Positions 2 through 29,458 of a stretch of 33,652 bases of DNA are shown here, in pieces. A model generated the notes under the pieces. It was not told the DNA's origin and did no database searches. It saw only the letters and a list, made by a program, of their open reading frames with translations. The stretch covers positions 1 to 33,652 of the forward strand of contig NZ_CAMFLC010000037.1 of NCBI RefSeq assembly GCF_945957465.1. Direction: 5' to 3'. The stretch comes from an uncultured Leifsonia sp. (GTDB lineage: Bacteria > Actinomycetota > Actinomycetes > Actinomycetales > Microbacteriaceae). A program made the translations under genes and the position numbers. Position 1 is the first letter of the stretch; every line of letters begins with the position of its first letter.

Positions 2-46
2 GAGACCGTCGGGGTGGTGAGAGGTGCGGAGTCGATCGCGGCCTGA
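2..46 (+). CDS. flhA: FlhA C-terminal end (partial, 5' part outside window)
   Basis: The frame that is open from the window edge ends in the residues ETVGVVRGAESIAA and a TGA at 44-46. A short tail with a VGVV-type ending is what I expect at the C-terminus of FlhA, the export-gate protein of the flagellar type III secretion system, and flhA is often close to csrA in Gram-positive bacteria. Only 14 residues are visible, so the call rests on this ending and on the csrA context. The next gene starts inside it at 24. Confidence 0.5.
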   Translation, partial: ETVGVVRGAESIAA

Positions 47-812
47 GTGGCTCGGCGGCGACCTCGGGCAGGAGGTGCTGCCTGCGGTGTCGACGTCGTC
101 GCAGACCTTCGCCGCCATCCTCGACGACCTCGTGCGGGCCACCGACGCCGCTGCTCCTCCCGACGCCGCTGCTCCCACCGCACCACCCGCATCCCCCGCT
201 TCACCGAAGGGCACATCGTCGTCGCTTTCGGAGCCCGACAGCGACAACGACGTGCCCCTCGCAGAGCATCACGCGACCGCACGCGCGCACGTGCTGCGGG
301 AGGCGCCTCCCGTGCGGCTCCGCGGCAGAGGCGACCTCACGCTCGTGGTCGGGCTCGGAGGCGACGCGCAGGCGGCAGCGGCGACCCTCGCGGCCTCCGC
401 CGACGCCGACGTGCTGGCGGTCGGCGACCGGCGGGAGGCGCTCGCGGCGCGGGCGGAGGGTGTGCGCCGCGAGTGCCCGATCGTGGGCGTGGTCGAGCTG
501 GCGCGGGTGGACGCCGTTCCGGCGCTCGCCGCCTCCCTCGCCGGCATCGAGCCCGACCAGGTCTGGGTCGCCGTCGACGTCAGCCGCAAGCTCGACGACA
601 CGGCGGTCTGGGTGCACGCCGTCGACGCCGTGCTCGCGGTCGACGGGATCGCCGCCCACGGAGCCGCGCACACGGCGACGCCTTGGGCGGTCGGCGCGCT
701 CGGCCTCCCGCTGCTCTGGCTCGACGCACCTCCCGCACCGCCCGGCCGGCCTGGACGGCTTGGCGTCGCCGCGACGCCGGTTCCGGATCCGCTGCCTCGC
801 CCGACCTCCTGA
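24..812 (+). CDS. FlhF-like (SRP-GTPase-related) flagellar protein lacking a P-loop
   Basis: A 262-residue protein starting at a GTG that overlaps the end of flhA. An Ala/Pro-rich N-terminal part (about residues 40-75) precedes a globular domain from about residue 100. There, LTVVVG-type text (seen as LTLVVGLGGDAQAAAATLA) stands where FlhF and other SRP GTPases have the G1 P-loop, but the GKT residues are absent. Later segments (VWVAVDVSRK near 185 and LGLPLLWLDA near 230) sit where the family has its G3 and G5 regions. I infer a degenerate FlhF paralogue that probably does not bind GTP in the usual way; FlhF helps place or assemble flagella. Residues 61-80 are encoded by a dispersed palindrome (205-262). 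Position between flhA and csrA supports a flagellar role. A plain hypothetical protein remains possible. Confidence 0.6.
   Translation: MRSRSRPEWLGGDLGQEVLPAVSTSSQTFAAILDDLVRATDAAAPPDAAAPTAPPASPASPKGTSSSLSEPDSDNDVPLAEHHATARAHVLREAPPVRLRGRGDLTLVVGLGGDAQAAAATLAASADADVLAVGDRREALAARAEGVRRECPIVGVVELARVDAVPALAASLAGIEPDQVWVAVDVSRKLDDTAVWVHAVDAVLAVDGIAAHGAAHTATPWAVGALGLPLLWLDAPPAPPGRPGRLGVAATPVPDPLPRPTS
205..262. repeat. Dispersed coding palindrome, copy A (inside FlhF-like gene)
   Basis: Two 26-base arms (206-231 and 235-260) match as inverted repeats at 22 of 26 positions around the 3-base loop agc. The outer core is GGGCACRTCGT. It is read in frame as KGTSSSLSEPDSDNDVPL (residues 62-79). Related copies are at 2756-2817 and 29397-29458. 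Confidence 0.85.
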
Positions 813-845
813 CGGCGGGTCCTGTCCGCCGGATGCGCGGCCGGA

Positions 846-851
846 TAGGCT
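846..851 (+). promoter_or_regulatory. -10 box TAGGCT of csrA, leaderless arrangement
   Basis: TAGGCT ends exactly 6 bases before the csrA ATG and no good Shine-Dalgarno sequence lies between, which suggests transcription starts at or next to the start codon. It may let csrA be expressed apart from the flagellar operon. Confidence 0.5.
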
Positions 852-857
852 GGACCA

Positions 858-1094
858 ATGCTGGTATTGACGCGGAAAGTCGGGGAGCGCGTGCTGATCG
901 GCGACGACATCGTCATCACGATCCTCGACGTCCGCGGCGACGGCATCCGCGTGGGCATCGACGCGCCGCGCGGCATCCGCATCCAGCGCGACGAGGTCGT
1001 GCAGGCCGTCACCGAGGCCAATCAGGAGGCGCGCGAGAACGCCGCCGCCACCCCCGACCCCGAATCCCTCATCAAGAAGTCCCTGGGCCTCTGA
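858..1094 (+). CDS. csrA: Translational regulator CsrA
   Basis: A 78-residue CsrA/RsmA protein. It opens with the family signature MLVLTRKVGERVLIGDDI and continues with GIRVGIDAPRGIRIQRDEV, covering all five strands of the dimer; the C-terminal helix and tail (QEARENAA to KKSLGL) are slightly longer than the usual 60-65 residues. CsrA binds GGA motifs in mRNA leaders and blocks translation; in Gram-positive flagellates it represses flagellin synthesis and is held back by FliW. Its place at the end of the flagellar export genes fits that. A TAGGCT -10 box sits directly upstream. The gene converges with the SDR gene, with only 13 bases between stops. Confidence 0.95.
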   Translation: MLVLTRKVGERVLIGDDIVITILDVRGDGIRVGIDAPRGIRIQRDEVVQAVTEANQEARENAAATPDPESLIKKSLGL

Positions 1095-1107
1095 ATCTGC
1101 CTCGGCT

Positions 1108-1866
1108 CTAAGCGATGCCCCCGCCGTCGGCGACGAGCGCGGTGCCGGTGACGTAGGACGACTCGTCGCTCGCGAGCCAGACGACGGCCGCGGCGATCTC
1201 GCGGGGCGCGCCCATGCGCCGCAGCGGACGATCGGCTGCCTCGGCGAGGAACGAACCGGTCTCCTGGCCGAGCTGGCGCGCCTCGTCACGCAGCATGCCG
1301 GTGTCGACGTCGCCGGGGTTGATCGAGTTGACGCGGATGCCCTGCGGCCCGTGGTCGATCGCGAGCGCGCGCGTCATGTTCACGACCGCCCCCTTGGATG
1401 CGCAGTACGAGATCGCCTGGCCACCGCCCTTGAGGCCCCAGCCGCTGCCGGTGTTGATGATGGATCCGCCTCCAGCGGCCGCCATCACCGGAACGACGTG
1501 CTTGCACATCAGGAACACCCCGCGCACGTTGACTCCGAAGACGCGGTCCCACTCCTCGACGGTGGTCTCGACGGCGGTGGTGCGACGGATGATGCCGGCG
1601 TTGTTGAACGACACGTCGATGCCGCCGAACGCCTCGACGGTCGCCGCGACGACGCGCTCGACGTCGGCCTCGGCGGAGACATCGGCGCCGAACGCGATCC
1701 CTTCGCCGCCGGCGGAGCGGATCTCGGCGGCCACCGCCTCCGCCGCCTCGTGCTGCAGGTCGACGACCGCGACCCGGGCGCCCTCCGCAGCGAAGGCGAG
1801 GGAGGTGGCGCGGCCGATGCCGCCCGCCCCTCCGGTGACGATGGCGGACTTGCCGGCTAGACGCAT
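1108..1866 (-). CDS. Short-chain dehydrogenase/reductase (SDR)
   Basis: A 252-residue classical SDR, a cytoplasmic NAD(P)-dependent oxidoreductase. Visible are the cofactor motif TGGAGGIG near residue 11, NNAG near 90, and the catalytic set S141, Y154 and K158 (YCASK), followed by NPGDVDTGM and a C-terminal end VTGTALVADGGGIA. D36 after the second strand (VVDLQ) suggests preference for NAD. The substrate cannot be read from sequence; relatives act on sugars, polyols, acetoin or 3-oxoacyl compounds. Its ATG overlaps the stop of the AcoX-like gene by 10 bases, so it is the last gene of the minus-strand operon beginning with the GH42 gene. Confidence 0.9.
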   Translation of the reverse strand: MRLAGKSAIVTGGAGGIGRATSLAFAAEGARVAVVDLQHEAAEAVAAEIRSAGGEGIAFGADVSAEADVERVVAATVEAFGGIDVSFNNAGIIRRTTAVETTVEEWDRVFGVNVRGVFLMCKHVVPVMAAAGGGSIINTGSGWGLKGGGQAISYCASKGAVVNMTRALAIDHGPQGIRVNSINPGDVDTGMLRDEARQLGQETGSFLAEAADRPLRRMGAPREIAAAVVWLASDESSYVTGTALVADGGGIA

Positions 1867-3131
1867 TCGGGTTCTCCTTCGATGGGGGCCGCTGTCGCGG
1901 CACTGACAGGGTAGAGGCTCGCGGCGGCGGGCCCGGTGATCACGGTGACGTGACCGGCCAGCCGCTCGTCGAGCGCCGGATCGCCGGTGTCGACCAGGAG
2001 CGGCCGGCCGGCGAGGTCGATGAGCTTCTGCTCGGTCGCGACCACGAGCAGGGGGTCGGCTCCCAGCGCCGCGATCACGCGCGCGGAGAGCTGCTGGTTG
2101 CCGCGGCCGAGGAGGAAGCCCTGGCCGCCGATGACGGTGACGATCGCCTGTGCGTCATGGCCGGTGACGGCTTCGTAGGCCTGACGCTCGGTGACGTCCC
2201 GGGCGATCAGGCGGCCGTCGTGGACGATGTCGACGCCGAGCGGAGAGGTGTCGAGTCCGAGGAGACGCCCGAGTTCGGCGGTCGTGCCGCCGGGGCCGAG
2301 CAGGTAGCGGGTGCCGGGGCGCATCCGCTCGGCCGCGCCCGCGGCGGCGCGGCGCACGGCCTCGCGCGCGCCGGCGGGTGTCGGCGCCTTGCGCGCCTGC
2401 GTGCGACCGGCCGAGACCGGGACAGGCACGAGGGCGAAGAGCAGCGGTTCCGGTCTTCCGGCACGCAGCAGGTCTTCGTCGAGGTCGAGCACTTCGGCTT
2501 CGGCCAGCGCGAGGCGCCGGGTGAGCCAGTCGGCCGCGAGAGCGCCGGCGGCGGCCGGCCCGACCGCGAAGCAGCCGGAGTACATCTTGACGCCGGCCGG
2601 GATCCCGAGCATCGGAACGCCCGACGGGAGGCCGCGGGCGACATCGCGCGCCGTGCCGTCCCCGCCCGCGAACAGCACGAGCGAGGCGCCTGCCGCGTGG
2701 AGCGCCGCGGCCGCCAGGGCCGTGTCATCCCCCGTCGTCGCGCCCTCCGCAGCGCCGAAGGGCACGTCGCCGTCACTTCCGCGCCCCGAAAGCGACGACA
2801 ACGTGCCCCTCGCGGGGAGGGAGCGCGCACGGGCGGAGGGCGTGTAGACGACGCGCGGCGTGAGGCCGGCAGCCCGCACGGCGTCCTCGCCGAGCGGGCC
2901 CGCAGCCGTGAGCACGTCGAGGCCAGGGCGGGCGGCGGCGAGCACGCGCAACGCCTCCGTCGCCCGTTCGGCGGCCCGTGCACGCCCGCCTCGGCGGAGC
3001 GCCTCGAGCTGCACCGCGACGCCGTCGCTCCCCGCGAGCCCCGCGGGTCCGCCGACGCCGGCGACCGGATTGACGATGACGCCGATCGTCACGGTCGCGC
3101 CCACTGCTGCACCCGGTTCACGCGACCGCAT
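1857..3131 (-). CDS. ATP-NAD kinase-like protein (AcoX / COG3199 type)
   Basis: About 424 residues. The N-terminal VTIGVIVNPVAGVGG and the central FAGGDGTARDV are the nucleotide-binding motifs of NAD-kinase-like proteins, and GIPAGVKMYSGCFA follows as in COG3199/AcoX. The later TVIGGQGFLLGRGNQQLS is also typical of this group. AcoX accompanies acetoin-degradation genes, but its reaction is not settled. Start: the ATG at 3131 overlaps the gcvPB end by 14 bases; a GTG at 3104 is a good alternative that starts just before VTIGVIVNP, and a longer frame up to 3224 reads through low-complexity Arg/Pro and is unlikely. Residues 108-125 are encoded by palindrome copy B, inserted between VVYTPSA and the GDDTALAAAAL helix, so the protein carries an extra loop. 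Confidence 0.8.
   Translation of the reverse strand: MRSREPGAAVGATVTIGVIVNPVAGVGGPAGLAGSDGVAVQLEALRRGGRARAAERATEALRVLAAARPGLDVLTAAGPLGEDAVRAAGLTPRVVYTPSARARSLPARGTLSSLSGRGSDGDVPFGAAEGATTGDDTALAAAALHAAGASLVLFAGGDGTARDVARGLPSGVPMLGIPAGVKMYSGCFAVGPAAAGALAADWLTRRLALAEAEVLDLDEDLLRAGRPEPLLFALVPVPVSAGRTQARKAPTPAGAREAVRRAAAGAAERMRPGTRYLLGPGGTTAELGRLLGLDTSPLGVDIVHDGRLIARDVTERQAYEAVTGHDAQAIVTVIGGQGFLLGRGNQQLSARVIAALGADPLLVVATEQKLIDLAGRPLLVDTGDPALDERLAGHVTVITGPAAASLYPVSAATAAPIEGEPECV
2756..2817. repeat. Dispersed coding palindrome, copy B (inside AcoX-like gene)
   Basis: Arms 2757-2781 and 2787-2811 match at 20 of 25 positions; every mismatch is a transition, so one transcript strand could close them as G-U pairs. 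Read on the minus strand in frame it gives RGTLSSLSGRGSDGDVPF, identical to the copy A peptide at 11 of 18 positions. A GCGGGGAGGGA extension on the right is shared with copy C. Confidence 0.85.
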
Positions 3132-8310: not shown

Positions 8311-8970
8311 ATGGCGATCGAGCGCAAGAACCTGCGTTCCCAGGTGCGAGAGGAGCTGATCGCGCGCATGCGCGCCGGCGACGTGCGGCCGGGGGAGAGC
8401 ATCAACGAGGTGCAGCTCGCCGCCGAACTCGGCGTCTCGCGCACGCCGCTGCGGGAGGCCCTCATCGCGCTCGAGTCGGAAGGCCAGATCGAGAGCGAGA
8501 ACGGCAAGGGCTTCCGGTTCGTGCCCCTGAGCGCCCGCGAGTTCGAAGAGCTCTGCCCGATCATCGTCACACTCGAGGGGCTCGCGCTCGACCTGTCGCC
8601 GGTCGACGAGCTCGCAGCACTGGGCGAACGCCTGGGCGCGCTCGCGGCGGCGTTCTCGGACGACGTCGCCGAACACGCGGTGGTCAACCGCAAGGACGAC
8701 GAGTGGCACAACCTGATGCTGAGCTCCTGCCCCAACAAGAAGCTGCTCGAGCAGATCGCCCAGGTGCGCAGCGCCATCCACCGCTACGAATCGCTCCTGG
8801 TCGGCGACGAGGTGCTGGTCGAGCGCTCGGCCGAGGAGCATGCGGAGATCGCCCGCCACCTCGTCGAGCGCGACGTGCCGGCGGCCAAAGCGGCGCTCGC
8901 CGAGAACTGGACCAACGGCATGCGACGCCTGCTCGCCGACGCCGGCATCAAGTGGGAGCGGCTCGGCTAG
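8311..8970 (+). CDS. GntR-family transcriptional regulator, FCD subfamily
   Basis: A 219-residue FadR-like regulator. The winged helix is at about 5-75, with the typical GESINEVQLAAELGVSRTPLREAL recognition region (each part visible across residues 30-55). The C-terminal FCD effector domain carries D131 and H135 of the DDEWHNLML segment and H177 of HAEIARHL, positions used in this family for a metal and an organic acid or sugar ligand. The start has a GGAGGG ribosome site. It is divergent from the GH42 operon with the 8223-8239 site between them, so it probably regulates itself, that operon and the transporter genes whose promoter has the same site. The ligand is unknown; a sugar acid or oligosaccharide product is likely. 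Confidence 0.92.
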   Translation: MAIERKNLRSQVREELIARMRAGDVRPGESINEVQLAAELGVSRTPLREALIALESEGQIESENGKGFRFVPLSAREFEELCPIIVTLEGLALDLSPVDELAALGERLGALAAAFSDDVAEHAVVNRKDDEWHNLMLSSCPNKKLLEQIAQVRSAIHRYESLLVGDEVLVERSAEEHAEIARHLVERDVPAAKAALAENWTNGMRRLLADAGIKWERLG

Positions 8971-8976
8971 CTCCCC

Positions 8977-9035
8977 CGACATTCGTCACGAATGTCGACT
9001 TTCGTGCCGACTTTTCGTCGATTCGTCACGAATCG
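8977..9035. promoter_or_regulatory. Cluster of ATTCGTCACGAAT palindromes before the GH10 gene
   Basis: Two near-perfect palindromes: 8977-8997 with core GACATTCGTCACGAATGTC, and 9019-9035, CGATTCGTCACGAATCG. Between them CGACTTTCGTGC and CGACTTTTCGTC form a direct repeat. A related cluster precedes the GH3 gene at 21683-21735. It may be an operator array or a dispersed intergenic repeat that also forms a hairpin after gntR. Confidence 0.7.
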
Positions 9036-21682: not shown

Positions 21683-21735
21683 ATTCGTCACGAATGCGAC
21701 TTTTCGTGCCACGAATCGCGATATTCGTCACGAAT
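21683..21735. promoter_or_regulatory. Cluster of ATTCGTCACGAAT palindromes before the GH3 gene
   Basis: ATTCGTCACGAAT at 21683-21695 and again at 21723-21735, with an imperfect palindrome TTCGTGCCACGAA (21703-21715) between. The part ATTCGTCACGAATGCGACTT matches the cluster at 8981-9035 apart from one base. It ends 75 bases before the GH3 ATG, close to the 67 bases seen for GH10. Confidence 0.7.
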
Positions 21736-21800
21736 GTCTGTGGCGCGGCATATCAAAAACCGACTGGTGTAAGGTATTGCCCGACCCGCGACCGTCATCG

Positions 21801-29396: not shown

Positions 29397-29458
29397 CGAA
29401 GGGCACGTTGTTGTCGTGTGAAAGGACGCGAAGTGACAACGACGTGCCCTTCGCGGGG
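29397..29458. repeat. Dispersed palindrome, copy C (intergenic)
   Basis: Arms 29398-29415 and 29435-29452 (GAAGGGCACGTTGTTGTC and its near complement) match at 17 of 18 positions; the middle is less symmetrical than in copies A and B. The frame used by copies A and B is open here on both strands (KGTLLSCERTRSDNDVPF on plus). It sits between the two dehydrogenase genes. Confidence 0.85.

Follow-up and report, generated by a model that had tools for sequence, protein, structure and literature searches.

The window analysed here, a stretch of 33,652 nucleotides from an uncultured Leifsonia sp. (contig NZ_CAMFLC010000037.1), contains three copies of a 57-bp palindromic element, two of which are read in frame within unrelated genes. 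On balance we favor the view that these sequences belong to a dispersed family of fixed-length palindromes resembling repetitive extragenic palindromic (REP) sequences, located mostly at the 3' ends of genes and homogenized by a putative process. A preliminary description of this DNA had presented two of the copies as a protein-coding element inserted in an FlhF-like and an AcoX-like gene; its observation is confirmed and its interpretation partly supported. Judging from genome comparisons, the family belongs to Leifsonia, with look-alikes in other Microbacteriaceae. What is new here is the exact length of 57 bp across unrelated interiors, the existence of clade dialects, and the presence of different dialects in one slot.

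In the window, the unit is made of two 25-bp arms and a 7-bp loop and runs from CGA to TCG. Copies 1 and 2, originally placed at 205-262 and 2756-2817, are real and near-perfect palindromes whose exact limits are 205-261 and 2756-2812; a third copy, at 29397-29453, had been missed. All three are of the dialect that we call D1. Copy 1 (plus strand) lies in frame in the linker of an open reading frame (ORF; 24-812, plus strand) whose N-terminus is close to the contig end, and specifies the peptide KGTSSSLSEPDSDNDVPL. This ORF has no Pfam match and "FlhF-like" serves only as a label. Copy 2 (minus strand) lies in frame in the AcoX-like gene (1857-3104, minus strand), whose product matches NAD_kinase and NAD_kinase_C, and specifies RGTLSSLSGRGSDGDVPF. 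Copy 3 occupies the spacer between two tandem GFO_IDH_MocA-type genes. A recount on the translations gave the 11 identical residues out of 18 that had been reported for the two peptides, and a single shared frame in which base 1 of the element is base 2 of a codon ("offset 1"). Taken as RNA, both strands of each copy (six in all) fold at energies between -27 and -49 kcal/mol, values equaled by no shuffled sequence. When copy 2 is compared with its orthologues in L125 and L126, it agrees with them at 45 and 44 of 50 arm bases in inverted orientation and at 40 and 40 in direct orientation; to judge by these counts, the palindrome looks as if it had been flipped in place in its own lineage.

The comparison set included 28 Leifsonia genomes, among them the window's own (G000), Leaf336 (G008), TF02-11 (G010) and L. 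shinshuensis DP-L11 (G026); the last three match copy 1 in site and frame. BLAST with copy 1 returned 47 matches in its own genome (E≤1, both strands counted). With a covariance model, 22 places there pass E≤1e-6 and 26 pass E≤1, but 20 of the copies had served to build the model and the counts are not independent of it; the further copies that the preliminary description had proposed to search for thus exist. Over 60 genomes (own and relatives) 25 were matched at E≤0.01, comprising 19 of the 28 Leifsonia and six others with weak matches. As a control independent of the model, a 49-base two-arm pattern of D1 was searched with up to three mismatches, alongside its reversal. The pattern occurred 19 times in G000, 43 in Leaf336, 53 in DP-L11, 80 in TF02-11 and 50 in G027, and in none of the other 23 Leifsonia genomes; the reversed pattern was absent from all 28, which rules out chance similarity. 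An exact two-arm pattern, sought in one genome per species across 84,980 species, a set that may omit very near relatives of the window's genome, was found in 48 stretches of three species, all Leifsonia (Leaf336, TF02-11 and DP-L11). A model search of 299 Microbacteriaceae genomes, in which few candidates per genome were scored and the model itself favors 57 bp, matched 13 genomes in 7 of 85 genera. Outside Leifsonia 11 loci were read; eight are CGA...TCG palindromes of 57 bp, and five of these lie between convergent genes. Four matches in other genera (L078-L080, L297) were dropped as due to chance, and one in the tail of an MFS gene (L075) as weak. The window has no Rfam match at gathering score. 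A phage or plasmid origin was considered and rejected: there was no plasmid match, and four partial 28-base matches to Brevundimonas phages were taken as chance. Palindromes between convergent genes were also seen in another family of the order (L074 and L076, at 1501-1557); they have the core TTGTCGTTTT...AAAACGACAA or similar and are weakly element-like.

In 1.6 Mb of sequence from G008, G014, G026 and G027, 57 palindromes of 40-80 bp run from CGA to TCG, and 37 of them measure exactly 57 bp; sequence shuffled in 30-base blocks yielded four such palindromes, none of that length. The exact set spans unrelated interiors, including family B (interior GTAAACGCCCCTA) and one more (G027 region, 105919). 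This exactness depends on the requirement for CGA/TCG ends: once it is removed, the maximal extent is 57 bp for 21 of the 113 palindromes found in the four Leifsonia regions and ranges from 35 to 74 bp for the rest. The D3 dialect reaches the same total by another route (27+3+27 bp in G003 and DP-L11), and the other D3 loci read also measure 57 bp from CGA to TCG, L284 excepted. A census of 400 kb from one genome of another genus (G034) gave nine palindromes; two measure 57 bp and three 56 bp, the other four having different lengths. Separate arrangements were noted in passing. Own contig C30 holds seven degenerate CGAAGGGCGCGTAAACGCCCC-type matches, 83-195 bp apart, like a family B array (L103, 1260-1991). 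In DP-L11, three D1-like palindromes follow one another with a 147-bp period and near-identical spacers (L323, ~1321-1671; G026:C5:314325-314667), a local duplication of element plus spacer. A further palindrome family, CGAGTACGCACAAATTGCACGC..., has two copies in the 400 kb of G014 (~176249 and 203973 of the joined L256-L275), one of them 58 bp long.

Where the copies lie was read from our own codon-based gene caller, corrected where orthology contradicts it; the caller missed the N-terminus of the FlhF-like gene in G000, G026 and L199, where the copy is coding by orthology. The 22 copies of the window's genome comprise seven between convergent genes, ten between tandem genes, two coding and three at contig ends, of which one (copy 1, at 205) is coding by orthology. 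In 1.2 Mb of G008, G026 and G027, taken irrespective of the element and scanned for palindromes that have CGA/TCG ends and measure 57-58 bp, 18 of 37 copies are convergent, 12 tandem, six coding (the FlhF-like copy of DP-L11 being counted here and not as tandem) and one at an edge. None is divergent. In these regions convergent and divergent gene pairs number 197 each and tandem pairs 773, and ~88% of the sequence is coding. The claim that the element is chiefly protein-coding is not supported by this census. A partly overlapping set of 50 copies from named genomes is distributed similarly (26 convergent, 14 tandem, seven coding, three edge, none divergent; its tandem L199:6165 is the FlhF-like coding copy), and 20 distinct loci of other dialects were classified as 12 convergent, six tandem and two divergent. 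The elements lie mostly within ~60 nt downstream of stop codons. Convergent spacers that contain an element (18 in three genomes, ≤400 nt) have medians of 75-120 nt, against 16-31 nt for those that do not, and fold more strongly.

Fifty cross-genome pairs of copies have shared flanks, 42 of them on both sides. At 21 orthologous sites, the arms are identical at 940 of 1050 positions (89.5%), the loops at 89 of 147 (60.5%) and the 25-nt flanks at 738 of 1148 aligned columns (64.3%); pairs with fewer than 36 of 50 arm bases in common (three of the 42 two-flank pairs) were dropped from this comparison. D1 arms at orthologous places (0.899, 44 pairs) are hardly more similar than those at unrelated places, whether of one genome (0.881, 824 pairs) or of different genomes (0.872, 3136 pairs), and the gap between same-genome and different-genome identity was reached by none of 500 label shuffles. 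Locus ancestry in the D1 arms is nearly erased. Ten stem pairs at orthologous sites changed on both sides with Watson-Crick pairing kept, and in the FlhF-like gene a block of the inner arm changed on both sides between TF02-11 and DP-L11. Systematic inversion of the loop was also considered, and dropped on finding single suggestive pairs only.

The dialects add to this picture. The D2 pattern was found 26 times in G001 and six times each in G013 and G019, and in none of 25 other Leifsonia genomes. The D3 unit was found in G014 (24), G021 (14), G003 (13), G009 (9), G001 (7), G025 (5), G000 (2), G026 (2) and G005 (1), and in none of the 19 others; reversed controls for both were zero throughout. 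D2b is a label taken from a single locus each in G002, G011, G016 and G022. In a tree built from three linked genes of 23 genomes, G027 not included, the D1 genomes form a clade (support 0.996), as do those of D2b (1.000). The D3 genome G014, however, is a close neighbor of the D2 genomes G013 and G019 (0.992), and G001, mostly D2, pairs with G021 (D3; 0.999), so that dialects may switch fast. Of the loci carrying other dialects (24, at 22 distinct places), six match a D1 slot by both flanks, five intergenic (L062, L277, L280, L282 and L286) and one in the FlhF-like gene (L289). In one slot the swap has an identical right-hand boundary (D2b in G011, D1 in TF02-11 and G000); in the remaining ones the flanks are too diverged or the spacing differs. 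The slot of window copy 3 holds D1 in G000, a D1 variant in Leaf336 and family B in DP-L11. The slot in the AcoX-like gene is filled in five of the 13 Leifsonia genomes that have the gene, by D1 in G000, Leaf336 and G027 and by a different dialect in G011 and G002.

One could envision the following scheme. A palindrome at a gene end would be tolerated or retained as a transcript hairpin, acting as a bidirectional 3'-end structure that lacks a U-tract and serves termination or the stability of the mRNA. Copies would be kept alike by a putative trans-acting copying or conversion activity, by which each 57-bp unit is replaced or corrected as a whole. Within genes, in linkers, a loop and protein tails, purifying selection would spare only the frame that yields a cysteine-free, flexible and nearly neutral peptide. 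Short palindromic repeats are usually attributed to REP-associated tyrosine transposases (RAYT) or to decayed transposons. The present family is abundant, clade-specific, homogeneous, exact in length and settled in shared slots, with no detectable RAYT: Y1_Tnp (PF01797) was matched in none of the 28 Leifsonia genomes, own included, and in five of 14 control genomes, and a RAYT-driven REP was rejected on this result. It is tempting to speculate, and we do so tentatively, with the balance tilted against it, that Leifsonia and probably other Microbacteriaceae possess a RAYT-independent means of rewriting 57-bp palindromes in place, whereby fixed slots downstream of genes, and a few within proteins, are converted jointly to the genome's current dialect. 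If so, the 19 residues of a protein linker would change along with dozens of non-coding sites. The in-gene slots provide a readable record, the peptide of one linker varying with the genome's dialect, and the long-standing question of the spread and homogeneity of such repeats becomes testable by comparing close species and strains.

A number of observations weigh against a homogenized gene-end hairpin. Divergent copies do occur: both places read of D2 in G001 (L061 and L281, ~1496-1557) are divergent, unlike D1, as are a weak family B copy of the window's genome (L101:6028) and a weak match in DP-L11 (39.5 bits). The majority of convergent pairs have neither an element nor a strong hairpin. 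No hairpin side out of 208 has TTTT within 15 nt, so that no canonical terminator is present, and tandem copies show no strand bias in G-U pairs (sense 42, antisense 31). In the stems, one-sided changes (47 to or from a mismatch and 18 to or from G-T) exceed the ten paired ones; among 20 own copies the covariation score is in modest excess (reached by 11 of 500 shuffles), and the count of pairs changed on both sides was reached by 141 of 500. Copy finding is biased toward the consensus, and the conservation of the arms is partly ascertained, since copies were found by similarity and the D1 arm set required at least 40 of 50 consensus bases. The dialect swaps might also stem from insertions recurring at hot spots, and no trans-acting enzyme was found. 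A separate idea, that G-U pairs confined to one side would betray selection on the RNA, was rejected: their concordance in single copies is no better than chance allows, the observed value being reached in 381 of 2000 random draws, and the tandem copies lack a sense bias.

The rival that survives best, though we regard it as unlikely, holds that the palindrome is the binding site of a sequence-specific DNA- or RNA-binding protein, with a role in the nucleoid, segregation, termination or processing, and that dialects track changes in that protein. Conserved arms, a free loop, a fixed length and conserved slots are what such a site would lead one to expect, as is the coordinated state of one stem pair: position 20:38 is A:T in all 12 sampled D1 copies of G027, and the other four genomes have G:C or a mixture there. 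Near-perfect arms of 25 bp are, however, long for a protein site, no candidate protein is at hand, and the number of D1 copies ranges from 0 to 80 among congeners.

Still less probable, in our view, is the explanation first offered, a mobile element akin to the Rickettsia palindromic elements, spreading as it enters genes in frame. It draws on real properties of the family. Five genes hold the 13 coding copies of D1 (FlhF-like four, AcoX-like three, EamA three, ScpA two, FlhB one), all of them read at offset 1, and orthologues with empty sites are many: eight of the 13 AcoX-like genes lack the element, and the FlhB tail carries it in DP-L11 but not in G014 or in Leaf336, where the tail resumes. 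The linker of the FlhF-like gene, followed in 23 genomes, has a recognizable element in ten (D1 peptides in G000, G008, G010 and G026; D2 in G001, G013 and G019; D3 units in G003, G014 and G021), a possibly decayed one, judged by eye, in four (G005, G009, G024 and G025) and none seen in nine. The EamA transporter tail is occupied in G000, Leaf336 and DP-L11, and the ScpA N-terminus in Leaf336 and DP-L11; in G000 the ScpA copy lies behind the neighboring gene's stop and overlaps the called start, leaving that start uncertain. L070 (aldo/keto reductase) was removed from the coding set as the element precedes the likely true start. Within the genus, further copies abound and the peptide was not found in orthologues without the palindrome. 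Dispersal and in-frame insertion in two unrelated genes are supported; present mobility is not, with 15 of the 22 own copies having an orthologous copy in the compared parts of other genomes and no target-site duplication, and the low share of coding copies speaks against a spread through genes. Nor was the frame chosen for its lack of stops. In 91 non-coding copies (182 readings), offset 0 is stop-free in 158, offset 1 in 155 and offset 2 in 96, so that offset 0, which would encode Arg/Cys-rich peptides, is as open as offset 1 and yet never used. The 13 coding copies have eight G-U pairs in the sense strand and 30 in the antisense strand, and just one of them, the AcoX-like copy of the window, has the more stable fold on the sense side; this asymmetry is suggestive only, because copies from the same gene are not independent.

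A minimal miniature inverted-repeat transposable element (MITE) of a DDE-type transposon, reduced to two terminal repeats and a short spacer, would account for a palindromic, dispersed family of clade-specific abundance. We consider it quite improbable in view of the dialect swaps at the same slots, the scarcity of solo arms in the own genome (~4 of 24 matches with at most one mismatch) and the lack of target-site duplication in 104 copies, where repeats of 2-10 nt were at or below the shuffled mean. That the copies are ordinary gene-end hairpins alike by coincidence is scarcely credible and excluded as a full account, since dozens of unrelated places share arm sequence and exact length at zero control matches and some copies lie inside genes, even if most are behind genes, palindromes of other lengths and sequences also exist and G014 has an unrelated hairpin in one orthologous convergent spacer.

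Two other features of the window may be mentioned. The csrA gene (858-1094, plus strand) lies directly downstream of the FlhF-like ORF. Inverted ATTCGTCACGAATGT repeats at 8970-9006 and 21710-21746, a motif also present in a spacer of Leaf336, are possibly a separate repeat family.

The titles and abstract openings returned by searches of open-licence literature describe no such element for Leifsonia or Microbacteriaceae; the word Leifsonia is absent from the work of Di Nocera et al. (2013; PMC3733652) and from a 2025 REP survey (PMC12306157). The closest relatives in kind are REPs and REP doublets forming hairpins (REPINs), GTAG- and CGTC-tagged palindromes located behind genes and sometimes within ORFs (PMC3733652). 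Like the Leifsonia element, they are short, dispersed and gene-downstream, between convergent or unidirectional pairs, with few in ORFs, and two Xanthomonas species have different REPs at about one recB site (PMC3733652). The Leifsonia element differs in its fixed 57 bp with CGA/TCG ends, the absence of a GTAG/CGTC tag, the lack of Y1_Tnp in its genomes, and clade dialects at common slots. The parallel drawn with Rickettsia palindromic elements, which we compared by description, holds in that those too are palindromic, form several families and enter unrelated genes in frame, where they encode a conserved peptide; it fails for size, ~105-150 bp against 57 bp (PMC2229807, PMC10969869), and for the coding copies, which in Leifsonia are a minority among dominant gene-end sites. 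Bacterial MITEs (ERIC, YPAL, NEMIS, RUP) are likewise non-autonomous and hairpin-forming and sometimes create in-frame fusions (PMC2229807), whereas the Leifsonia element is smaller, exact in length and free of target-site duplication and TA termini. In Nematomorpha mitochondria, inverted repeats are also kept in protein-coding sequence, but there both arms encode conserved parts of proteins, whereas the Leifsonia insert sits in variable linkers and tails (PMC6649704). With intrinsic terminators the element shares a strong hairpin, not the U-tract. The DNA uptake sequences of Neisseriaceae also come in clade dialects, form 3'-end hairpins as inverted pairs and prefer a frame within genes; the Leifsonia unit differs from them in being a full 57-bp palindrome, with few solo arms in the window's genome.

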